From Sphingobium sp. (GTDB taxonomy: Bacteria; Pseudomonadota; Alphaproteobacteria; Sphingomonadales; Sphingomonadaceae), in contig JASBTC010000237.1 in the NCBI GenBank assembly GCA_030148625.1, positions 1-17,812 of the forward strand: 17,812 nt of DNA, in the 5' to 3' direction. Made by a program: the position numbers and the translations under genes. Below are positions 3,881-16,200 of this stretch, piece after piece. The notes beneath the pieces are model-generated. The model saw only the letters and a list, made by a program, of their open reading frames with translations, was not told the origin of the DNA and ran no database searches. How positions within the stretch are numbered: the first letter of the stretch is position 1; each line of letters opens with the position of its first letter.

Positions 3881-5353
3881 TCACTTCCTTCCTTCTTGCG
3901 CGGCCGCGATCGCGGTCAGTGCCGGGCTCGTCGCCGGCTCCATCGCCGCTCCGCCGATGCCGATCGACAGCAGCCGGGCGGCACCGGGGTCGAGCCGAGA
4001 CCAGGCGGGCAGGCCCTTTCCATTGGGATCGCCCGTCTTCGCGAAATTGGTCCAGTAATCGCCGATCAGCCTGGCCGCGGCGCGGTCTTCGGCGGTGGCG
4101 TCCGCTGGCAGGTTGCCGAACTGGAAGACCACGTCGGATGCATGGACGGCACCCTGATCCTTCTTGCGCTGGCCCTCCGCGACATAGCCGAAGCGATAGA
4201 GGAAGGCCGGCGCGCCGGCCCGCGCCTGCAACAGGCCGAAGGCCAATGCCGGTTCGCCGAACATGATGTCCGCCGCGACGCGGCGGTTCGCCTCGTCCTT
4301 GTCGGCATAGGCGGCCATCACCGCGTCGGCCCCCGCCCCGAGCCCTTCGAGCGCGGGCTTGTTCACCATGCCCCGGAAAGCGCCGGGCACGAAGCCCAGC
4401 TCGTCGTCGTTGCTGCCGACGATATAGGGGATTTTCGCCTGTTTGCCCGCGGCGAAGATCGCATCGGCATTGGCGGGCACGATGACGCCATCGGTGATCG
4501 GCCCCGAATAGCGATCATCCTCCTTGTTCAGCAGGTTGATGCCGCCCAGGACCCGGTCGGCCGGCAGCGCACGCAGCGCCGCCGCGTCGCCCGCCTTTGC
4601 GCGTGTGCCAAAGGCCTGCCCCTTCGCCTGCGCCTCGGCGAGCGTCGGCCAGCGGTTGCGACTTCCGCCCGAGGCGACGATCGCGCGCACGAACAGCCCC
4701 TTCGCCGCGGGTGACGCCATCAGCCGCGTGACCGACTCGCCCCCGGCGCTCTCGCCGAAAACCGTCACGCTGGCCGGATCCCCGCCAAGCGCCGCGACAT
4801 TGCGCTGCACCCATTTGAGCGCCGCGATCTGGTCCATCAGCCCCCAATTGCCGCCGCCGTCGATCGCGGGATGCGCGAAGAAGCCGAAACGGCCGAGCCG
4901 GTAGTTGAAGCTGACGACGACGAAGCCGCGCCGCGCGAGCGCCGCGCCGTCGGTTTCGGGGAGCGAGCCCGACCCGCCGACGAAACCCCCGCCATGGATC
5001 CAGACCATGACCGGCAGCTTCGCGCCCTTTTCCGGTCGCGGCGTCCAGACATTGAGGAACAGGCAATCCTCGTTCATCGGCCGCTCGCCCGCCTTGGCGC
5101 CGGGCATCGGATTCTGCATGCAATCCGCACCATAAGCGGTGGCATCGCGTGGCGCGGTCCAGGGCGGGACGGGCGCGGGATCGCGCCAGCGCCCGTCCCC
5201 GACCGGCGCCGCCGCATAGGGGACGCCCTTGAAGGCGGCGACACCCTCGGCGGTCGCACCCGCGACCGGCCCGCTGTCGATCGTCACCTGCTGCGCGGCG
5301 GCGGGCGCCGCGATCGCACAGGCTATTGCGAACAGGGTTACGCTACGCATCAT
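3881..5353 (-). CDS. Type-B carboxylesterase (para-nitrobenzyl-esterase family), exported
   Basis: A 490-residue carboxylesterase type B. A signal peptide ends near AAPAAAQQ (residues 15-22). Family marks are NEDCLFLNVWTP (94-105), the oxyanion motif IHGGGFVGG (119-127), the nucleophile elbow FGESAGG (Ser202), a probable acid in SNDDELGF (about 314-321) and AVHASDV with His404. The length is typical. The ATG at 5353 overlaps the TGA of the rhamnosidase gene (ATGA); a second ATG follows at 5350. The family hydrolyses carboxylic esters of many kinds, so the substrate is not fixed by sequence. As one of three unrelated esterases in this operon it probably removes a different acyl group from the same glycoside, in the periplasm. 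Confidence 0.96.
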   Translation of the reverse strand: MMRSVTLFAIACAIAAPAAAQQVTIDSGPVAGATAEGVAAFKGVPYAAAPVGDGRWRDPAPVPPWTAPRDATAYGADCMQNPMPGAKAGERPMNEDCLFLNVWTPRPEKGAKLPVMVWIHGGGFVGGSGSLPETDGAALARRGFVVVSFNYRLGRFGFFAHPAIDGGGNWGLMDQIAALKWVQRNVAALGGDPASVTVFGESAGGESVTRLMASPAAKGLFVRAIVASGGSRNRWPTLAEAQAKGQAFGTRAKAGDAAALRALPADRVLGGINLLNKEDDRYSGPITDGVIVPANADAIFAAGKQAKIPYIVGSNDDELGFVPGAFRGMVNKPALEGLGAGADAVMAAYADKDEANRRVAADIMFGEPALAFGLLQARAGAPAFLYRFGYVAEGQRKKDQGAVHASDVVFQFGNLPADATAEDRAAARLIGDYWTNFAKTGDPNGKGLPAWSRLDPGAARLLSIGIGGAAMEPATSPALTAIAAAQEGRK

Positions 5354-8300
5354 CGGTCGGCTCCGGTGGTGAAGGTGAACTGGCCTGGCCCGGTACGATA
5401 GACGGAATAGCCCGCCTCCTGCCGCAGGGGTTCGGCTCCGGCGGGCGCGTGCACCGCGCCGAAACGGGCCGGAACCCAGATCTCGCCGGTCGTGTTCGGC
5501 GGAACCTCGGCGGTCAGCGTCAGCCTGCCGCCTGCGACCGTCCAGCCGGAAAAGGCGCGCCCATGGATCGTCTCCATCGTCGCCTCCGCACTGGCAAGAC
5601 CATCGGGAATCGCCGGCTTGACCAGGACCGTCTTGTAGCCCGGCGCGCCGGGGCGCAGGCCGGCGAGGCGCTGGCGCAACCCGTCGGCGATCGACCCGAA
5701 ATAATGATGATCGCGCGACCGGCTGTTCAGGCTCCAGGTCTCGAACATGGTGGAATGGCCGTTGGCGATCCACCAGCCCCAGCTCGGTTCGTCGGTGCGC
5801 GTCGCGACGCGATAGGCGAGGTCGGCATGGCCGTAGTCGCTCAATATCTCGAGCAGATAGCGCGCACCGAACACGCCGGTGCGCAGCCCCTGTTTGTCGA
5901 CGTCGCGCGCGATCGCGTCCGCGACCCCCTGCTCGCCGCCCTTCGGCGCCATGCCGAAGGCCAGCGGCAGCACATTCTGGACCTGGGTCGGCGGCCCGGC
6001 GACACCCTTGGCATCGACGGTGCGATACCAGCCATTCGCCGCATCCCAGTAGCGCGCATTATAGGCGCCACGGATATCCGCCGCGAGCCGGGCGTAGCGC
6101 GCGGCATCCTCCGCCTTGCCGACGACGGCGGAGGATCGGGCGAGCAGATCGGCCTGATGGAAGAAATAGGCGGTGGTCACGGCATCGATGCCGCCGCCGC
6201 GCGCATTGCTATAGTCCATGCCGCCCGCCGATGCCCATTCGGACAGGCCCGCCGCGCGCCGATAATCGGGCGCCTTGATGAAGGTCGCGGTATAATCGAC
6301 CAGCCGGCGCTGCATCGCCTGATTGTCGGCAAGCACGTGCGTATCGCCATAGGTGGTGTAGAGTTCCCAGGGCAGGATCATCGCCGCGACGTCCCAGGGC
6401 GTGGTCGGCCCCCAGATGACGTTCCAGCCCGGCGTATCCTCATAGCCATAATAGGGCGTCGTCGGCGCGATCTCGGGCAATTCGCCCTTTTCCGACTGCG
6501 CATCGCGGAAATCGGCGAGCCATTTGGTCCAGACGCGCGCGACGTCGAGGCTGCGTGCCGCGGCGCCCGCCGACGCCTGTGCATCGCCGGTCCAGCCATT
6601 CTTCTCATAGGTCGGCGTGTCGGTCTGGAAGCCGTGCATATTGTTGAGGATCGTCGCGATCGCCGCGGCGTCGATCCGGTTGAGCAGCGGATTGGCGCTC
6701 GTGAAACTGCCGGTGCGCGCAACCGCGGAATGGGCGATGCGTGCCGTCAGCACCCCGTCCGCCGGCGTTCCGGGAAAACCCTCGACCTGGACATAGCGGA
6801 AACCGCGATAGCCGAAGCGCGGCGCCCATTGCTCCTCGCCCTTGCCGGCGAGCGTGTAGCGGTCGGTCTGGAGTTGCGCATCGATCAGCCCTGCGGCCGG
6901 CACCACCCGGCCATTCTCGGCAATGCGCTCGCTCGCGATCATCGACACGGTCGTCCCGGCCGGGCCGCGCAGCCTGAGCACCGGCCAGCCCGAGACGATC
7001 CGTCCGAAATCATAGACGTGCACACCGGGCGCCGCCTGTTTGACCGCAACCGGGGCGATCGTCTCCACCGGCTCGATCATTTCGGAATTCACCGCCACCA
7101 GCCGGCCCGCAGGGCCGGTGACGAGCGTTGCCGCCGACCATTTACCGTCCCGGAAACCGGGCCGGTCCCAGCCGGCCGGAACGAGACGGGCGTCGAAACG
7201 CTCGCCGCGATGCACCGAATCGTTCAGCGTCGGCCCCGATATCGTCCGCCAGCCGGCATCGGTCGCGATCGTCTCGCGCGTGCCGTCGGCATAGGTGATC
7301 TCGAGCTGCGCCCTGATCGCGGGCTCGCCATGCCAGAGGGCTGCGTGGAAATACCATTCATTGGGATCGGTCAGCCCGTACCAGCCGCGCCCCAGCTCCG
7401 CGCCGACGACATTCTCGCCCCGGCCGAGCAAGGCGGTCACATCATAGGCATAGGTCAGCACCCGCTTGTCATAAGCGGTGAAGCCCGCACCCAGCGACGA
7501 TCCGACGATCTGGCCATTGACCGACAGCCGCGGCATGCCCGCGCCCGCGACATAGAGGCGCGCCTGTGCGACGGGCCTGGTCAGTCGAAAGGCGCGGCGA
7601 ACGAGCGGCGCGGGCGCCTCGATCGGCAGCATCAGATCGACGCCCGGCACGCCGCTCGCGACGACCAGCCCGTCCCCGGTCACGGCGCCGCCGCTGAAGG
7701 GATTGTCGCCACCGGCAAAATCGATGCCGACGTCCGGGCCCCGGCCGCCCGTCACGCGCACATGGTGCACGATCGCCGCCGCGGCTTCCTTCGCCGAAAA
7801 GCCGATCGTGCCATGGGCATGCGCGTCATTCTCGATCGTCGCGACGATCGTGCCGTCGATGCTGGTAACGATGCGCCGGCCTTCGGCGCGAATCTGGAGG
7901 CGGATGCGGCGCCCCTTGATCGGACCGGCCAGCGTCACCTGCCCCAGCCTTTCGGTCTTCACCGCGGAGCTGGTGCCGCCGGGATAGCGGCGGACCGACT
8001 GGATCAGCTCGGGTCCGTTCCTGTCCTCGGCCAAAGTCCAGACATAGGCGTCGCCATAGGTCTTGCCGTTGGGGAGCGCGCGGAACAGGATATCGACGGC
8101 CTTGCCCGTCAAGGTCAGTTCTGTGTCGAGCGTCAGGTCGCTCCAGTCATGGTCGCGCCGCTGCGGGCCGGCGATCCACCGCGCCTGCCAGTCGGACGTA
8201 TCGAGCAATCCCATTTCCCACCAGGCGGGCGCACTCCAGCCGCTGGCCTTGCCCTCCGCATCCCAAACCTGCACCTGCCACCAGTAACGCCGGCGCGACG

Positions 8301-8589
8301 ACAATGCCGGCCCGGCATAGGCGATCTGGACATTGTCGGCCGATACCATTTTGCCGCTGTCCCATAAAGGTGCGCGATCGAGAGCATCGACCTCCGTCGC
8401 CACGCGGATGCGATAGGCCGACTGGCGCGCGACGGGCGAGCGCCAGGCCAGGCGCGGCGCCGCGACATCGAGGCCCAGCGGCGCCGGCGCATATTCGGTG
8501 CGCAGAGCCGTTGGCGCCTCCTGCGCCGCAGGCGCCGGCGTCGCGGCTGCCAGGACAGCCGCCAGCGCACCCAGGACCAGGCCCCGCAA
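5350..8589 (-). CDS. GH78 alpha-L-rhamnosidase, exported, multidomain
   Basis: About 1079 residues if read from the TTG at 8589. Domains in order: signal peptide (1 to about 22), an N-terminal beta-sandwich (about 40-130, with YWWQVQVWD), a laminin-G/concanavalin-like insert (about 145-282), the Bac_rhamnosid_N sandwich (about 330-500), a further beta domain (about 520-620), the (alpha/alpha)6 catalytic barrel (about 625-970) and a C-terminal beta domain. The family acid motif is DTPTYEKNGWTGDAQ with Asp657 and Glu662; the second Glu is Glu950 in STMFETWS. These match the inverting GH78 mechanism that releases terminal alpha-L-rhamnose. The start is uncertain: no in-frame ATG lies between the signal peptide and an ATG at 8694 inside the receptor gene. 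The TTG gives a normal signal peptide; CTG at 8601 is an alternative. Confidence 0.95.
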   Translation of the reverse strand: MRGLVLGALAAVLAAATPAPAAQEAPTALRTEYAPAPLGLDVAAPRLAWRSPVARQSAYRIRVATEVDALDRAPLWDSGKMVSADNVQIAYAGPALSSRRRYWWQVQVWDAEGKASGWSAPAWWEMGLLDTSDWQARWIAGPQRRDHDWSDLTLDTELTLTGKAVDILFRALPNGKTYGDAYVWTLAEDRNGPELIQSVRRYPGGTSSAVKTERLGQVTLAGPIKGRRIRLQIRAEGRRIVTSIDGTIVATIENDAHAHGTIGFSAKEAAAAIVHHVRVTGGRGPDVGIDFAGGDNPFSGGAVTGDGLVVASGVPGVDLMLPIEAPAPLVRRAFRLTRPVAQARLYVAGAGMPRLSVNGQIVGSSLGAGFTAYDKRVLTYAYDVTALLGRGENVVGAELGRGWYGLTDPNEWYFHAALWHGEPAIRAQLEITYADGTRETIATDAGWRTISGPTLNDSVHRGERFDARLVPAGWDRPGFRDGKWSAATLVTGPAGRLVAVNSEMIEPVETIAPVAVKQAAPGVHVYDFGRIVSGWPVLRLRGPAGTTVSMIASERIAENGRVVPAAGLIDAQLQTDRYTLAGKGEEQWAPRFGYRGFRYVQVEGFPGTPADGVLTARIAHSAVARTGSFTSANPLLNRIDAAAIATILNNMHGFQTDTPTYEKNGWTGDAQASAGAAARSLDVARVWTKWLADFRDAQSEKGELPEIAPTTPYYGYEDTPGWNVIWGPTTPWDVAAMILPWELYTTYGDTHVLADNQAMQRRLVDYTATFIKAPDYRRAAGLSEWASAGGMDYSNARGGGIDAVTTAYFFHQADLLARSSAVVGKAEDAARYARLAADIRGAYNARYWDAANGWYRTVDAKGVAGPPTQVQNVLPLAFGMAPKGGEQGVADAIARDVDKQGLRTGVFGARYLLEILSDYGHADLAYRVATRTDEPSWGWWIANGHSTMFETWSLNSRSRDHHYFGSIADGLRQRLAGLRPGAPGYKTVLVKPAIPDGLASAEATMETIHGRAFSGWTVAGGRLTLTAEVPPNTTGEIWVPARFGAVHAPAGAEPLRQEAGYSVYRTGPGQFTFTTGADR

Positions 8590-8597
8590 GCTTCCGA

Positions 8598-8624
8598 TCA
8601 GCGGCAGCGCCTCCTCCTCATCAT
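8598..8624 (-). other. Eight-codon mini-ORF (MMRRRRCR) at the receptor/rhamnosidase junction
   Basis: An ATG-ATG pair starts on the last base of the receptor stop codon (TGATG), just as coupled genes do elsewhere in this operon, then runs six codons (Arg4, Cys, Arg) to a TGA at 8600-8598. That TGA overlaps a CTG in the rhamnosidase frame and lies 8 bases before its TTG. Its AGGAGGAGG could also act as a Shine-Dalgarno for the CTG 8 bases on. It may be a coupling leader peptide, or the true basic N-terminus of the rhamnosidase signal peptide split by a one-base indel. The sequence alone does not decide. Confidence 0.4.
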
Positions 8625-11281
8625 CAGAATTTGGTGCGGATACCGAAGGACACTGTCCGTCCCAGCGTGCTGCCATTGGTATAGCCGGCGGCATTGTTCA
8701 GGAACGGCGGATCCTCGTCCAGCACATTGTCGACGTTCAGCGTCAGCATGGTGTTGGCGAACAGATCGTCGAGATCGTAGCTGAAGAAGAGATCGACCGT
8801 GTTGAAGGACGAGACGCGCTTCTGCGGCGCCACGCCGAGCAGCGGGTAGCCGCCACGATGGTTGAGCGTCGCGCGTGCGGTCAGGTCGCCCACCGTACCG
8901 CCGAGCGACGCGGTGGCGAAGAAGCGGCCGGTGCCGTTTTTGAGATCGTCGCTGAAGACCGCGCCCTGCACCACCTGCGTCTTGCGGTTGAGCAGATAGG
9001 TGCCGGCGACGCTGGCGTTCAGCGAACCGAAGCCGGTCGGGCGGGTATAGGCGAGATTGAAGTCGATGCCGTCGACGTTCACCGCGCCCAGATTGGCGCG
9101 CTGCGCGAAGAACAGCACATAGGGCGAGCTGATCGCGTAGAGCGTCGCCAGATTGGGCACGCCGTCGATGCGCAGGGTTCCGGCCGCGGCCTGAGCCTGC
9201 GCCAGCGTGGGATTCAGGACGTAGAAGCTCGAATAGGCCGGGTTGGAAAAGAGCACCGGCGACGTCACCGGCGGAACCGCGATGGCGTTCTTGAACTTCA
9301 CGTTGAAATAGGTCGCGCTGACGACGAGCCCCGAAACCGCGGCGGGCTTGAAGTCGAAGCCCAGCGACCAGGTATCGGCGGTCTCGGGTTTCAGATTGGC
9401 GTTGCCGCCCGCGATCACCAATGTCGGCCGCAGCGCGTCGAAGGGCGAGCCGCCCGGCGCGCGGAACGGACTGAACGGCAGCACCTGCACGCGCGAGTCG
9501 ACCGAGTTGCCGAGATCGACAAGGCTCGGCGCGTGGAAGGACGTGCCGTAATTGCCGCGGATCGTCAGCGCCTCGAACGGCCGCCAGGTCAGGCCGACCT
9601 TCGGATTGGTGGTACCGCCGGTATCGCTATAATCGTCGTAGCGGATCGAGCCGGAGAGCTCGAGACTGTGGAAGCCCGGCGTCGCATTGTCCGCGCCGAA
9701 GATCGGCACCAGCACCTCGCCGAACAGCGATTTCACCGTACGCGACGTATAGGCGCTGCCCCCAGTGATCGCGTTTCGCGGGCCGCTGCCGGTGAAGGAG
9801 TCGATATTCTCGTAATGATATTCGGCGCCGACGGCCAGGCGGACGTCCCCGCCCGACATCCTGAAGAGCGGCCCGTCGAGCACGAGGCGCCCCTCGGCCA
9901 GTTCCTGCGTCGCCTGGCCATAATTGACGAAGTCGTTGATCGTCGCGAGCACCGCCGGCGAGGTCGCCGACAGATTATAGGGATTGAGTGCCGTGGCCGT
10001 CGTTGTCCCGGCAAGCGCCATCGTCACCGCGGTCGCATTGATCGAATCCTCGGTCGATTCATTCTCGCTGCGTCCGAAATTGGCGAGCGCGCGAAGCTGC
10101 CAGCCGCCGCCCAGTTCGAAATCGATGCTCGGCGTGACGCCATAGGATGTGAAGCGCGACGGGCTGATATTGGCCGGTCCGAAGACATTGTCGAAAGCGA
10201 AGGCGACATTGTGCGACGTCTCCGTCCCGATCCGCGAGAAGAAGGGATTGAGCGCGGTGATCGTGCCGCTCTGGCTGCTCTGCGCGGTGCGGTGGACCGT
10301 GTCGCGCTTCGACCAATAGGCCGTCATGTTGAAATGGACGGCGTCGCTGAGGTCCTGGGTCAGGCCGGCGAAGACGCTGTGCCGCTCCTCGCGCGGATAG
10401 ATGGCGGCATAGTCGGTCTGGTCGCAGCGGTTGAGCGTGCCGGGTGCCCGGCCCGGGAGCGCATAGGTGGTCGCGCCGATGGTGATGTTCGCCAGCGGAC
10501 AGGCCGTGCTGCGGAAATCGCCGCCACCGCGCGCGGTCTGGTCGGCCGTGGCATAACCGCGGTCGAGGCCGATCAGATCGTCGTGCCAGGCATAGGCGTA
10601 GGAGATGAAGATCGAGCCCGAACCCCAGTCCTTGCCGGCGATCACGCTGGCGTCGATCGTCTGGTAATCCTTGGCGAAGCCGTAGCGCGCATTGACGCCG
10701 ATGCCGTCATAACGATCACGCGTGATGAAGTTGATGACGCCGCCGATCGCGTCGGAACCATAGATGGAAGAACCGCCATCGGGGATGATGTCGACGCGCC
10801 TGATCACGTCGGGCGGAATCACCGAGGGATCGAAGCTGGTCTGGAGGATGCCGGCGCCGATCATGCGGTGACCGTTCATCAGGACGAGCGTCGTCGAACC
10901 GCCGCTGCCGCCAAGATTGCGGATATTGGGGCGCACGATCGGATTGCCGTAATTGCCGACGCCCGCCGGGATCGTTCCGAAATTGCCGACCTGCGGAATC
11001 GAGGCGAGCAAGTCGTTGGCCGAAGCGGCGCCGGAGGCGATGACGTCCTTCTCGGTGACGCCGATGACATTGGTGCCGACCGGTGCCACGCCGCGCAGCA
11101 GCGTGCCGGTCACCACGATCGTCGCATCCTCGGACTCAGCTTCGGTGGCGTCCCCGCTCCTGTCCTGAGCCTGGGCGATACTCGCGGCCATCAGCGCGCC
11201 GGCACAGGCCAGGGCGGACACACCCCAGCGCATGCCGCGCCGCGCAAGAAAAGCCGAATTGGTTGCAGTCATCCCCGTCAT
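8624..11281 (-). CDS. TonB-dependent outer-membrane receptor, presumed rhamnoside importer
   Basis: An 885-residue TonB-dependent receptor. A signal peptide (about 1-39, ending SIAQAQ) is followed by an acidic linker with a TonB-box-like DATIVVTG (about 52-59), then a plug domain (about 60-190) containing VLMNGHRM and RRVDIIPDGGSSIYGSDAIGG, and a beta-barrel ending in the classic terminal Phe (FGIRTKF). The ATG at 11281 is preferred because TTGGAGG lies 6 bases before it; an in-frame ATG at 11287 would have that site directly against it. No SusD, FecR or sigma gene is nearby, as is usual for sphingomonad receptors. It is the first gene of the operon that continues into the GH78 rhamnosidase, so it likely carries rhamnose-containing glycosides across the outer membrane. 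The ligand is inferred from context only. Confidence 0.96.
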   Translation of the reverse strand: MTGMTATNSAFLARRGMRWGVSALACAGALMAASIAQAQDRSGDATEAESEDATIVVTGTLLRGVAPVGTNVIGVTEKDVIASGAASANDLLASIPQVGNFGTIPAGVGNYGNPIVRPNIRNLGGSGGSTTLVLMNGHRMIGAGILQTSFDPSVIPPDVIRRVDIIPDGGSSIYGSDAIGGVINFITRDRYDGIGVNARYGFAKDYQTIDASVIAGKDWGSGSIFISYAYAWHDDLIGLDRGYATADQTARGGGDFRSTACPLANITIGATTYALPGRAPGTLNRCDQTDYAAIYPREERHSVFAGLTQDLSDAVHFNMTAYWSKRDTVHRTAQSSQSGTITALNPFFSRIGTETSHNVAFAFDNVFGPANISPSRFTSYGVTPSIDFELGGGWQLRALANFGRSENESTEDSINATAVTMALAGTTTATALNPYNLSATSPAVLATINDFVNYGQATQELAEGRLVLDGPLFRMSGGDVRLAVGAEYHYENIDSFTGSGPRNAITGGSAYTSRTVKSLFGEVLVPIFGADNATPGFHSLELSGSIRYDDYSDTGGTTNPKVGLTWRPFEALTIRGNYGTSFHAPSLVDLGNSVDSRVQVLPFSPFRAPGGSPFDALRPTLVIAGGNANLKPETADTWSLGFDFKPAAVSGLVVSATYFNVKFKNAIAVPPVTSPVLFSNPAYSSFYVLNPTLAQAQAAAGTLRIDGVPNLATLYAISSPYVLFFAQRANLGAVNVDGIDFNLAYTRPTGFGSLNASVAGTYLLNRKTQVVQGAVFSDDLKNGTGRFFATASLGGTVGDLTARATLNHRGGYPLLGVAPQKRVSSFNTVDLFFSYDLDDLFANTMLTLNVDNVLDEDPPFLNNAAGYTNGSTLGRTVSFGIRTKF

Positions 11282-11396
11282 CGCCATCCTCCAACTGCTT
11301 CCGCATCATCGGCGGAAATCTGGTTCGGCGGAGGAAACGTGAATCTCTCCAGGCCCCTCCTGCAAGGCGCCTCTATGAGCGCTTTTGCAGATTTGC

Positions 11397-12458: not shown

Positions 12459-13754
12459 CTAAACGATGCCTGCGGCCGTTCCGGCCGCTCGCCGCTCCTG
12501 CGCCTTGCGATCGCGCCAGCCGCTGGCACGATAGGCGGCGATCATGTCGATCGCCCCACCCGCGTCCGCGCGTGCCTTTGCCAGGATCGGCGATACGTCG
12601 GTGCGATAGGCGTTTCGCAGCGCCTGGAACGCCATCATCGCGTCATTGGCGTCCTGCGCCGCGTGCAGCGCATTGCGATCGACGAGCAAAGCCTTGGCAT
12701 AGGCGCCCGCGATCGCCTCTGCCGACGCCATCATGCTTTCGATGGGATCGGTCACATTGTGCGACTGGTCGATCATGTAAGCGGGGCGGAAACCGCCCAG
12801 GGGATTGCGCTCCGCCTCGACCAGTTCGTTGAAGACGAGGAACAGCTGATGCGGATTGATCGCCCCGGAATCCAGATCGTCGTCGCCATATTTGCTGTCG
12901 TTGAAGTGGAAGCCGCCGAGCTTGCCGAAGCGATGGAGCCGCGCGACGATCTGTTCGATGTTCACGGTGGGGGCATGATGGCCGAGATCGACGAGGCATT
13001 GCGCCTTGTCACCCAGTTCCTGGGCAACGAGGATCGAGCTGCCCCAGTCGGAAATGACGGTCGAATAGAAGGCGGGTTCGTACAGCTTGTGCTCGATCAG
13101 CATCCGCCAGCCATGAGGCAGCGCGGCATAGACCTGCGACGCCGCATCGACATAGCGGTCGAGCGAACGGCCGAGATCCTGCTGCCCCGGAAGATTGGTG
13201 CCGTCGCCGACCCACACCGTCAGGTCGGAAACGCCCAATTGCACGCCGATCTCGATACACTCGATATTGTGCGCGATCGCCTGCTCGCGCACGTCGGCGC
13301 GAGTGGAGGAAAGCGAGCCGGTGGCATAGCTGAACGCCTGGCCCGGCTGATCCTGGAAACTGTTGCTGTTGACCGCGTCGAAGCCGAGGCCGAGCGCCGC
13401 CGCCTCCTCGCGCAGCGCGCGATAGTCGCTCACCCGGTCCCAGGGAAAATGCGGGCTCACGCGCGGCGTGACGCGGCAAAGCTGCTGCACCACCGCGCAA
13501 TCCTCCAGTTTCTCATGGATGCTGGTGGGCTCGCCCGGAATCGGGAATTTGGCGAAACGCGTGCCGCCGCGCCCCGCGCCCCAGCTCGGCACCGCCACCG
13601 AGAAATCCGCGACCTTCGCGGTCACGGCCTCGATAGAGATGCCGCGACGGTCGAGCTGGCGACCAAGACTGTCATAATCGTCGTCGAGCGCATCGCGGAG
13701 GCCCGCATTCAGGCGCTCGACGACATCCCGCGCCACCGGCGTATCGTCCACCAT
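12459..13754 (-). CDS. rhaI: L-rhamnose isomerase, Pseudomonas stutzeri/rhizobial type
   Basis: A 431-residue TIM-barrel metal-dependent isomerase that converts L-rhamnose to L-rhamnulose in the cytoplasm. The whole metal-binding set known from the P. stutzeri enzyme can be assigned with a constant +2 offset: Glu221 (IEHK), Asp256 and His259 (LVDLGHH), His283 (GGFHFND), Asp291 and Asp293 (YGDDD) and Asp329 (MIDQSHN). This is the RhaI type, distinct from E. coli RhaA. The ATG at 13754 is chosen because GGGAGG lies 6 bases upstream; the in-frame ATG at 13760 would abut that site. The gene follows rhaD on the same strand, but a 222-bp palindrome cluster sits between them. Downstream is the DeoR-family gene. 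Confidence 0.97.
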   Translation of the reverse strand: MVDDTPVARDVVERLNAGLRDALDDDYDSLGRQLDRRGISIEAVTAKVADFSVAVPSWGAGRGGTRFAKFPIPGEPTSIHEKLEDCAVVQQLCRVTPRVSPHFPWDRVSDYRALREEAAALGLGFDAVNSNSFQDQPGQAFSYATGSLSSTRADVREQAIAHNIECIEIGVQLGVSDLTVWVGDGTNLPGQQDLGRSLDRYVDAASQVYAALPHGWRMLIEHKLYEPAFYSTVISDWGSSILVAQELGDKAQCLVDLGHHAPTVNIEQIVARLHRFGKLGGFHFNDSKYGDDDLDSGAINPHQLFLVFNELVEAERNPLGGFRPAYMIDQSHNVTDPIESMMASAEAIAGAYAKALLVDRNALHAAQDANDAMMAFQALRNAYRTDVSPILAKARADAGGAIDMIAAYRASGWRDRKAQERRAAGTAAGIV

Positions 13755-13773
13755 GCCCATCCTCTCCCGTTTC

Positions 13774-13817
13774 TTAGAGCGGTTTATGATCTGATTGAAT
13801 CAGATCGACCACTCTAA
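13774..13817. repeat. Palindrome 1 of the rhaD-rhaI intergenic cluster
   Basis: Outer arms TTAGAG/CTCTAA (13774-13779, 13812-13817) enclose a perfect inner palindrome, GATCTGATT (13788-13796), one base, AATCAGATC (13798-13806). The left TAGAGCG (13775-13781) can also pair with CGCTCTA at 13873-13879, linking this element to palindrome 2. It lies about 8 bases upstream of the rhaI ribosome site. Confidence 0.8.
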
Positions 13818-13833
13818 GCTTTTGTTTCGCCGT

Positions 13834-13873
13834 GATTTCCGAGTCGTCAGATGAAGCCATCTGACTGGAAATC
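13834..13873. repeat. Palindrome 2 of the rhaD-rhaI intergenic cluster
   Basis: GATTTCC (13834-13840) pairs with GGAAATC (13867-13873), and GTCAGATG (13846-13853) with CATCTGAC (13858-13865) around a 4-base loop, leaving a 5:1 internal bulge. The combination with palindrome 1 resembles a repeat seen between genes in sphingomonad genomes (from memory). Confidence 0.75.
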
Positions 13874-13877
13874 GCTC

Positions 13878-13931
13878 TAGTGGATCGTATCTGACAAAAG
13901 CATCCGCTTTTGTCAGAGGCCCGATCCACTA
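13878..13931. repeat. Palindrome 3 of the rhaD-rhaI intergenic cluster
   Basis: TAGTGGATCG (13878-13887) pairs with CGATCCACTA (13922-13931). Inside, CTGACAAAAGC (13891-13901) pairs with GCTTTTGTCAG (13906-13916) around the loop ATCC. Both the terminal TAGTGG/CCACTA and the tip GCATCCGC are the same as in palindrome 4, so 3 and 4 belong to one family with different stems. Confidence 0.85.
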
Positions 13932-13939
13932 AGCTATTG

Positions 13940-13995
13940 GCTAGTGGTCTGCTCCAAACGGATGCATCCGCATCCGTTTGGAGCAGACCACTAGC
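13940..13995. repeat. Palindrome 4: perfect 26-bp stem containing the rhaD stop codon
   Basis: Arms 13940-13965 and 13970-13995 are perfectly complementary over 26 bases around the 4-base loop ATCC. The rhaD stop codon (TAG, 13993-13991 on the minus strand) and the last base pairs of its final sense codon fall inside the right arm. No T-run follows, so an intrinsic terminator is not indicated. Any transcript crossing it, in either direction, would form a very stable hairpin. Confidence 0.92.
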
Positions 13996-16105
13996 GCGTA
14001 AAGGCCTGCGCGTTGCCCGCGTCGACATTGATCATGTTGCCGGTCGACTTTGCCGACATGTCGCTCGCCAGGAAATAGACGGCTTCGGCCACATCCTCCG
14101 GCAACACGTCGCGCTTCAGCAGCGAGCGGTTGCGATAATGTTCCTCGAGCGCGTTGCCGGCGTCGATGCCGTGCGCGCCGGCGCGCTCGCGACGCCAGTC
14201 GCCATCCCAGATGCGCGATCCCTTGATCACCGCATCGGGATTGACGGTGTTGACGCGGATGCCATGCGGCGCGCCTTCGAGCGCCAGGCAGCGCGCCAGA
14301 TGGAGCGCCGCGGCCTTGGCCGAGGCATAGGCAGCGGCATTGGTCGCCGCCGCGATGCCGTTCTTCGATCCGATGAAGACGATCGCGCCGCCGCCCTGCT
14401 GCCGCATCAGCGGAAAGGCCGCCCGCGCGGTGAGGAAATAGCCCTTGGCGAGCACGTCGTAATTGCGTTGCCACAGATCGATGTCGGTATCCTCGATCGG
14501 CGCCGAAGACGCGATGCCCGCATTGGCGATAAAAATGTCCAGCCCGCCGAATTCGCGCGCGCAGGCGGCGAAAGCGGCAGCGACCTGCGCCTCGTCGGTG
14601 ACGTCGCACACGGACGAACGGATCCTGTCCTTTCCGAACCGGGCTTCGAGGCGCTCCGCGGCATCGGTCAGCGCGTCGGAGTCGCGATCGACCAGCATCA
14701 CGCACGCATCGTCGGCCGCCAGCCGGTCGGCGGTCGCCGCACCGATGCCACCCGCAGCGCCGGTGACGAGCGCGATACGCCCGGCGAGCCGCTTCGGCTT
14801 CGGCATGCGCCGCAGCTTGGCTTCTTCGAGCAGCCAATATTCGATGTCGAACGCCTCCTGCTCGTCGAGGCCGACATAGGAACCGATCGCTTCCGCGCCG
14901 CGCATCACGTTGATGGCATTGGCGTAGAATTCGCCGGCCAGCCGCGCCGTCATCTTGTCGGCCGCGAAGGTCATGCGCCCGATGCCGGGAACGAGCACGA
15001 CCACGGGATTGGGATCGCGCATCGCCGGCGAATCCGGCCGGGCGCAGCGCCGGTAATAGGCCGCATAGTCCTGGCGATAGGCCTCGATCCGCTCACCGAG
15101 ATAGGCCGCATCGCCGATCCGCGCAGGATCGAGCACGAGCGGCGCGATCTTGGTTCGCAGGAAATGATCGGGACAGGAGGTGCCCGTCGCAGCCAGCCGC
15201 TCGAAATCGCGGCTACCGACGAACTCCAGCGTTTCGGCATCGTCGGCGAAATGCCCGACGCGGCCACGATCGCCACCCATCAGGCCGCGCAGCAATGGCA
15301 TCAGGGCAGCCGCGGCGGCGACACGCTCGGCCGGCACGCGCGGCGGCGAAACCTCTCCACCGAACGCCGCCATATCGGCCAGCTTGTCGTTCAGATAATC
15401 GGCCGCGTCGGCGATCAGGCCGATCGTGTTGGCGTAGCAAGCCTGGGCGCTGTCGCCCCAGCAGATGATGCCGTGCCCCGCCAGCATCACGCCGCGCAGC
15501 CCCGGATTCGCGGCGACATGGTCGCGCAGCTTCAGCCCCAGATCGAATCCGGGCCGCTGCCATGGCAGCCAGCCGACCGCACCGCCCCAGATGGCACGAG
15601 TCGCCGCCTCACCCTCACTCGACGCCGCAAGCGCGATGATCGCATCGGGATGGACATGGTCGACATGATCGAACGGTAGATAGGCATGGAGCGGCGTGTC
15701 GATCGACGCCGCGCGCGGATTGAGCGCGAAGGTGCAGTGCGGCAGATAGCCGACCATCTCGTCCTCATGCGCAAGGCCGCGATACAGCGCCTCCAGCCCG
15801 AGCAGCTTGTCGAGATAGAGCGTCGCGAAACCTTCGCGCTTCATCGATCCGATATCGCCGCCCGACCCCTTCACCCACAGCACGCGCACCGCGTCACCGG
15901 TCAGCGGATCGCGCCCGTCGAGCTTCGCCGAGGTGTTGCCGCCGCCGAAATTGGTCACCGTCAGGTCCGAACCCAGAAGGTTGGAGCGATAAAGCAACAG
16001 CTCTTCCGGCCCCTTCCCCGCCGCCTCCGCGTCGGACCAACGGCTCGACGGAACCGCAAAGCGCAGCGCAACTCGGGATTTGGGCATGGCATCCATTTCG
16101 GACAT
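13991..16105 (-). CDS. rhaD: Bifunctional rhamnulose-1-phosphate aldolase / L-lactaldehyde dehydrogenase
   Basis: A 704-residue fusion. The N-terminal class-II aldolase domain (about 35-430) shows NFGGGNTSAK (52-61), the metal-binding HVDHVH (His147, His150, His152) and AGHG (His211). The C-terminal short-chain dehydrogenase (about 440-704) shows TGAAGGIG (448-455), NAG (528-530), Ser580 and the YASAK pair Tyr593/Lys597. The enzyme cleaves L-rhamnulose-1-phosphate to DHAP and L-lactaldehyde and oxidises the latter to L-lactate with NAD. Length is as expected for the family. The start is uncertain: ATGs at 16105, 16096 and 16087 are all in frame with weak ribosome sites, and longer starts would run through the rhaB control region. 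It is divergent from rhaB and ends inside a perfect palindrome. Confidence 0.96.
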   Translation of the reverse strand: MSEMDAMPKSRVALRFAVPSSRWSDAEAAGKGPEELLLYRSNLLGSDLTVTNFGGGNTSAKLDGRDPLTGDAVRVLWVKGSGGDIGSMKREGFATLYLDKLLGLEALYRGLAHEDEMVGYLPHCTFALNPRAASIDTPLHAYLPFDHVDHVHPDAIIALAASSEGEAATRAIWGGAVGWLPWQRPGFDLGLKLRDHVAANPGLRGVMLAGHGIICWGDSAQACYANTIGLIADAADYLNDKLADMAAFGGEVSPPRVPAERVAAAAALMPLLRGLMGGDRGRVGHFADDAETLEFVGSRDFERLAATGTSCPDHFLRTKIAPLVLDPARIGDAAYLGERIEAYRQDYAAYYRRCARPDSPAMRDPNPVVVLVPGIGRMTFAADKMTARLAGEFYANAINVMRGAEAIGSYVGLDEQEAFDIEYWLLEEAKLRRMPKPKRLAGRIALVTGAAGGIGAATADRLAADDACVMLVDRDSDALTDAAERLEARFGKDRIRSSVCDVTDEAQVAAAFAACAREFGGLDIFIANAGIASSAPIEDTDIDLWQRNYDVLAKGYFLTARAAFPLMRQQGGGAIVFIGSKNGIAAATNAAAYASAKAAALHLARCLALEGAPHGIRVNTVNPDAVIKGSRIWDGDWRRERAGAHGIDAGNALEEHYRNRSLLKRDVLPEDVAEAVYFLASDMSAKSTGNMINVDAGNAQAFTR

Positions 16106-16138
16106 GAAGGAAATCCGTTGTTTGATTGGCGGCATCTC

Positions 16139-16175
16139 TATCGAAATCGCTGGCATGTTGCAATCAGTTTCGATA
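16139..16175. promoter_or_regulatory. Inverted repeat TATCGAAA...TTTCGATA in the rhaD/rhaB divergent region
   Basis: TATCGAAA (16139-16146) and TTTCGATA (16168-16175) are perfect 8-base inverted half-sites, start to start 29 bases apart. TTTCGA/TCGAAA half-sites are typical of several DeoR- and other HTH-family operators. The right half overlaps the tandem 10-base repeats, so the two signals may be parts of one operator. Confidence 0.4.
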
Positions 16176-16200
16176 AAGTTCAATCAAATTCAGTCGAAAA
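16161..16200. promoter_or_regulatory. Four tandem 10-bp near-repeats, candidate operator for rhaD and rhaB
   Basis: Four consecutive units share a C-purine-purine-T start and exact 10-base spacing: CAATCAGTTT, CGATAAAGTT, CAATCAAATT, CAGTCGAAAA. One helical turn per unit would place protein contacts on one face of the DNA. They lie 21 to 60 bases before the rhaB ATG and 56 to 95 bases before the chosen rhaD start. Some DeoR-family regulators, such as B. subtilis IolR, bind tandem direct repeats, which makes the neighbouring regulator the natural candidate. Confidence 0.55.

Follow-up and report, generated by a model that had tools for sequence, protein, structure and literature searches.

The gap between rhaD and rhaI in the window (the whole 17,812-nt stretch analyzed here, deposited as Sphingobium sp.) is very probably occupied by two different non-autonomous two-armed repeats, A and B, that inserted next to each other into the rhaD stop codon. 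The window carries a gene cluster for rhamnose use from a bacterium resembling Sphingopyxis. The RhaI encoded there shares 90% identity with that of Sphingopyxis sp. PET50 (locus L001) and 86-87% with those of L002-L007, and five of these six loci are named Sphingopyxis. The rhaD and rhaI genes were named by NCBIfam models, and the operon runs on the minus strand (Table 1). The cluster also includes an alpha-L-rhamnosidase-like open reading frame (5350-8694) and a TonB-dependent receptor-like one (8624-11287), both under the curated cut-offs of the models shown.

A preliminary description of the window had reported four palindromes packed between the two genes. The palindromes are present and lie far beyond chance. 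The block folds to about -138 kcal/mol on either strand compared with -65 for dinucleotide shuffles, with z scores of -15.6 and -15.0 for the two strands and none of 200 shuffles equaling it in each. In a scan of the window and 111 loci (810 kb; loops of up to 8, score taken as matches minus twice mismatches), the element 4 palindrome scores 26 and the runner-up 20. The block extends into rhaD, whose stop codon is the TAG triplet at 13993-13991 on the minus strand. Searching the window against Rfam gave no matches at gathering scores. It had also been observed correctly that elements 3 and 4 have common ends and a common tip, and that elements 1 and 2 can pair through TAGAGCG/CGCTCTA. The latter pairing is explained by elements 1 and 2 forming both arms of a single repeat whose ends are inverted; the same holds for elements 3 and 4. 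The count of four elements should therefore be replaced by two repeats, A (elements 1 and 2) and B (elements 3 and 4). They overlap by one TA, and the gap reads TA-B-TA-A-TA.

Table 1. Positions of the rhaD and rhaI genes, the two repeats and their parts in the window
Feature	Position	Strand	Basis
rhaI, L-rhamnose catabolism isomerase	12459..13760	-	TIGR02629 above cut-off
rhaD, bifunctional rhamnulose-1-phosphate aldolase/short-chain dehydrogenase	13991..16183	-	NF006189 and TIGR02632 above cut-offs; ORF as listed, start unchecked
Repeat A, 105-bp two-armed repeat of CIR type, ends TAGAGCG...CGCTCTA	13775..13879	+	blastn relatives; covariance-model match 1-105, 104.3 bits
Repeat B, 116-bp two-armed repeat, ends TAGTGG...CCACTA, no GANTC	13878..13993	+	blastn relatives G097, G335, G303; model match 1-120, 124.9 bits
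TA on the rhaI side of repeat A, outer copy of the target TA	13775..13776	.	L002, L003, L005, L007 read CGC-TAA-G at the rhaD end
TA common to A (last two bases) and B (first two)	13878..13879	.	R1 and R2 model matches overlap by exactly two bases
rhaD stop codon TAG, made up of TA and the opening G of repeat B	13991..13993	-	sequence, ORF end; L001-L007 have TAA
Element 1	arms 13773-13783/13808-13818; inner palindrome 13788-13806		
Element 2	13846-13865		outer GATTTCC/GGAAATC pairing visible in fold
Element 3	arms 13878-13887/13922-13931; inner palindrome 13890-13917		
Element 4	13940-13965/13970-13995		perfect 26-bp inverted repeat

Repeat A is common in Sphingopyxis and also occurs in other Alphaproteobacteria. 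A blastn search with the block gave matches in 4 of 13 genomes and then in 21 of 80 genomes of PET50's genus (Sphingopyxis). All listed matches fall within the part made up of elements 1 and 2 (positions 10-127 of the query of 239), and many span both elements. Two covariance models were used, R1 for A (19 copies) and R2 for B (4 copies); both include the window copies, so that the window scores are not independent, while the blastn results are. Repeat A was found by R1 in at most 45 of the 80 Sphingopyxis-genus genomes at E ≤ 1e-4, an upper figure because R1 matches of 51.4 bits over 115 nt, which recur in many genomes, may be a different conserved structure. Among the matches listed, one genome has at least 34. 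Relatives of A are also found on plasmids of Bartonella, Ochrobactrum, Asticcacaulis, Novosphingobium and Sphingobium, and in part (36-39% of the query) on those of Rhizobium. Across copies the ends read TAGAGYG and CRCTCTA. The idea that the stem is free while ends and loop are conserved, drawn in the preliminary description from elements 3 and 4, is right in kind for repeat A: among 19 aligned copies, 20 of the 35 arm pairs have changed on both sides and 94.3% of the cells are paired. The covariation score is 0.321 compared with 0.139 in shuffles, none of 500 being as high. Four measures of pairing were reached by none of 500 shuffles, and a fifth, the number of further pair types, by 8 of 500. 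GANTC is located at the tip of arm 1 in 32 of 46 copies, the window included, and is absent altogether from 4 of the 46; its density is 20.3 per kb in A versus 1.4 in the flanks. The window copy has GANTC at its positions 23 (the arm-1 tip) and 67. A TA is present at the left end in 30 of 39 copies and at the right end in 30 of 40, and the window copy has it; the 40 fetched copies are among the best model matches and not a random draw.

Repeat B, 116-120 bp in length, shares this design but belongs to a rarer family. Elements 3 and 4 occur as a single unit in the family genomes G097, G335 and G303; a count over the family, scoring no more than two candidates from each genome, gave B in 3 of 397 genomes at E ≤ 1e-5. 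The preliminary description had proposed a search for the pattern TAGTGG...CCACTA. With gaps widened to 8-38 and both strands searched, this pattern is present in none of the 80 Sphingopyxis-genus genomes and in 2 of the 397 family genomes, the matches being few because the pattern fits the rare repeat B. None of the five full B copies has a GANTC, and B is therefore not filed as CIR. Against plasmids, elements 3 and 4 gave four short matches (E 0.09 to 4) that were judged to be chance. A search for an autonomous partner of B with exact TAGTGGTCTG in three genomes gave 7 places and no transposase with matching ends. Where another B-like piece lies about 2 kb off (G097, contig C13), the enclosed genes are ordinary-looking and no transposase was recognised by eye.

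Several B copies show unusual forms. In the window, the two halves of one B arm (13940-13995) match perfectly over 26 bp; the B copies of other genomes retain a bulge there (ATTTTCC on one side), and the perfect arm looks like the outcome of palindrome correction by template switching. At L122, L123, L124 (same place as L113) and L278, B copies lack one arm or nearly everything, with the short ends left joined, as if hairpins were cut out. At L112/L228 (G097, contig C24), the stop codon of a gene that resembles recA by eye seems to come from a one-armed B copy.

Comparison with relatives places the two repeats in the rhaD stop codon. The rhaD end lies directly upstream in 55 of 80 rhaI loci. 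Counted up to where the RhaI match starts, the gaps are 13-222 nt long: 39 fall short of 60 nt, and the other 16 span 65-222 nt. Searches for A and B in these 55 gaps found neither. In the 80 loci as a whole (705 kb, E ≤ 0.01), R1 has a single match, at L062 and away from the gap, and R2 has none. The seven loci closest by RhaI (L001-L007) have short gaps, TAA stops and no block. On the coding strand, four of them (L002, L003, L005 and L007) read CGC-TAA-G, and the window reads CGC-TA-[B]-TA-[A]-TA-AG. The RhaD protein of the window ends in AQAFTR, as do those of L001-L007. A second B-A junction with a common TA is found at L227 (R1 28.1 bits). By eye, L195 and L222 show an apparent truncated neighbor repeat. 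The gap had been suggested to be a spot where small non-autonomous repeats nest. This suggestion held up, since both repeats occur elsewhere, were not found in the relatives' gap and abut with one shared TA. At the level of sequence comparison, a mobile-repeat reading of the block is supported, and repeats A and B are probably mobile.

Empty sites provided information on the target. The joined flanks of 15 of the 40 fetched A copies were searched against the 80 genomes, keeping best matches only. Among the 30 listed places that were fetched, one is a filled copy (L267), one does not span the junction (L257), and 28 span it without the repeat. A single (C/T)TA is found at the junction in 23 of these 28, and at the filled site the repeat lies between two. 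The 23 clean places cover six of the 15 copies (L182, L183, L188, L197, L215 and L218). The other five (L261-L265) are not cleanly single TA; those of copy L201 have a TGA stop and that of copy L189 has no TA. The base after the right-hand TA of A is G in 17, A in 8, T in 3 and C in 1 of the 29 copies (out of 40) that read CTAN, whereas G follows the left-hand TA position in 38 of 39. The variable right base against the fixed left G means that the G belongs to the repeat and that the duplication is best read as TA (2 bp), not CTAG. These comparisons indicate that A inserts at (C/T)TA and duplicates the TA. At individual sites, the empty state may instead reflect exact removal of a repeat. For B, G303 and G258 differ at one site: a copy is present in the former and missing from the latter; G419 has a shortened copy there. 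The G303 copy at this site has mutated TG/CG ends, and the site shows gain or loss, not duplication. Some B copies are flanked by TA; from these and from the window we infer that B also duplicates TA.

The ends of repeat A coincide with stop codons. At 61 of 80 A ends, the sequence reads as a stop triplet for a gene entering from outside, and 42 of these 61 close an open frame of at least 100 codons. By comparison, other stops in the same flanks close such frames in 63 of 433 cases for TAG (p = 4e-18), 27 of 219 for TAA and 155 of 1381 for TGA. Reading the same 80 ends in the two remaining frames gives 8 and 25 that stay open for at least 100 codons. These frames are stop-to-stop readings in 1-kb flanks, not annotation. 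Counted by copy, 30 of 40 close a neighboring ORF of at least 100 codons on at least one side, and 12 of 40 on both. Of the five plasmid loci with A that were fetched, four are annotated, and all four have a CDS that terminates in the TAG of the repeat. We also surveyed YTAR sites outside gene interiors, with genes called by ORF length; stop codons make up 7 of 10 such sites in eight loci (L001-L007 and L043) and 31 of 132 in 51 sphingomonad and related loci. The rate of 30 of 40 A copies differs from 31 of 132 but not from 7 of 10. Target choice plus selection may therefore be enough for the stop-codon placement, with no special preference needed. Since the first base of each repeat is G, insertion into a TAA or TAG stop codon regenerates TAG, and in the window B supplies the rhaD stop. 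Each insertion recreates CTAG, which would explain the end-to-end packing. Judged by titles and the beginnings of abstracts, no report of stop-codon placement of such repeats was found, although one may still be in print.

As judged from its build, repeat A is probably a sphingomonad form of the alphaproteobacterial CIR repeats, the Caulobacter CcrM-associated intergenic repeats CIR1-4 (Chen and Shapiro, 2003; as reviewed in PMC2229807 and PMC10969869). The CIR are described as about 110 bp long, with two arms and a linker, TA ends and GANTC at the arm loop (PMC2229807). Matched by description, they share with A a length of ~105-110 bp, two long arms with a linker, TA ends, GANTC at or in the arm loop, location at gene ends or in intergenic regions, and occurrence in several Alphaproteobacteria. 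The nearest sequence proxy for the published CIR is the A copy on a plasmid of Asticcacaulis (Caulobacteraceae). In its account of CIR, the 2007 review leaves the mechanism of mobility open and marks target duplication with '?' (PMC2229807), whereas TA duplication and stop-codon placement are seen for A. The same account gives repeats other than CIR one stem over the whole repeat, not two arms (PMC2229807). Repeat B has the CIR design but no GANTC. The features of a MITE, inverted ends and target duplication, are found in A (TAGAGYG...CRCTCTA, with the single (C/T)TA in 23 of 28 empty places); B has inverted ends (TAGTGG...CCACTA) and one empty site only, where the ends of the copy are mutated.

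Other known elements resemble the block in part. RIME of Rhizobium is like A in size and palindromic make-up, and A has partial relatives on Rhizobium plasmids. IS711, a member of the IS5 family, reportedly follows the same target and TA-duplication rule as A, but is an 842-bp element with its own genes. In Brucella, IS711 is described as targeting YTAR, duplicating the TA and preferring Bru-RS palindromes (PMC2266754). These palindromes, Bru-RS1/2, are 103-105 bp repeats (PMC2267715), similar to A in size and palindromic make-up by description; A has relatives on plasmids of Ochrobactrum. Also by description, the small repeats, nested clusters and gene-end placement of the block have counterparts in BOX/RUP/SPRITE of pneumococcus, which form clusters with repeats inserted in one another (PMC10969869), and in QMITE2 of Coxiella, already known to sit at gene ends, most often in 3' untranslated regions (PMC10969869). 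RUP inserts at TA (PMC2229807). In the Sphingopyxis granuli genome paper, the sole 'palindromic' is in a CRISPRFinder reference.

The stability of the fold raises the question of an RNA function. The block could be a selected RNA device of the operon, with hairpins that stop 3'-5' decay or are cut by RNase III/E, making RhaD and RhaI unequal; we consider this unlikely. The gap z of -13.5 lies beyond all 85 control gaps (60-250 nt, loci L001-L059; lowest -6.9) and the other rha gaps (lowest -8.6, L034). Moreover, z ≤ -2 is reached in 11 of 16 other rhaD-rhaI gaps of at least 60 nt compared with 9 of 36 other same-direction gaps (p = 0.005), but counting the Novosphingobium group (L025-L028, L032) a single time raises p to 0.07. 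Among the control gaps, 6 of 26 convergent and 5 of 23 divergent ones also have z ≤ -2, which weakens but keeps the hairpin signal at the rha gap. The hairpins in this gap differ by lineage, as might suit such a device, and different hairpins or repeats are seen there in L017, L019, L025-L028, L032, L034, L035, L067 and L070. The hairpin excess at the junction is thus a lead, at sequence level, for a role of hairpins there, not proof. Against a device selected in this operon, the block is absent from L001-L007, most rhaD-rhaI gaps (39 of 55) are too short to reach 60 nt, and A and B adjoin other genes elsewhere. The earlier proposal that the block sets relative RhaD and RhaI levels likewise did not find support, as the seven closest loci do without it and the transcribed strand is without a terminator-like site.

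That last observation also bears on the possibility that A and B act at gene ends, chiefly between convergent genes, as transcription terminators or insulators and are retained for this reason. The 12 copies of A that close ORFs on both sides would fit such a role. However, the only terminator-like site (a stem followed by a T run) is on the plus strand, not on the transcribed minus strand, and since rhaD and rhaI run in the same direction, a terminator between them would deprive rhaI of transcription. Many YTAR sites outside genes are stop codons in any case. We regard this role as quite unlikely. No promoter-like site was found. That the palindromes originated on the spot, through template switching or local duplication and with no mobile repeat involved, is highly improbable: homologous copies of A and B with matching ends are found at other places in other genomes. 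The perfect B arm, compared with the bulged copies elsewhere, does carry a mark of palindrome correction, and correction in place may account for the perfection of that one arm.

Insertion of two mobile repeats could proceed as follows. A transposase acting in trans would insert a repeat at (C/T)TA(A/G) and duplicate the TA, a step supported for A by the filled and empty sites and presumed for B. With G as its first base and C as its last, a repeat inserted into a TAA or TAG stop would leave the gene ending in TAG and the protein unchanged. Each repeat end would again read like a target, allowing a second repeat to land beside the first and produce TA-B-TA-A-TA. Any effect on the rhaD-rhaI mRNA, such as a stabilised rhaD 3' end or loosened translational coupling, would be a by-product. 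A wider proposal, which we offer tentatively and which may well not hold, is that a single transposase system that duplicates TA moves several unrelated two-armed repeat families of Alphaproteobacteria, and that its target, YTAR, coincides with a stop codon preceded by a pyrimidine. The repeat ends would restore both stop and target, so that gene ends would become docking sites where repeats stack without harming proteins, and landings of CIR-type repeats would also plant CcrM sites (GANTC) at a gene end or inside an operon.

The block suggests how repeats can pile up at gene ends without gene damage. The empty sites point to TA duplication at YTAR, which would simply explain the gene-end and tandem placement of CIR-type repeats. 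Annotation of genes and operons should expect stop codons supplied by such repeats. Family B has the same design without the methylation site, and a comparison of A and B can therefore ask what GANTC adds.
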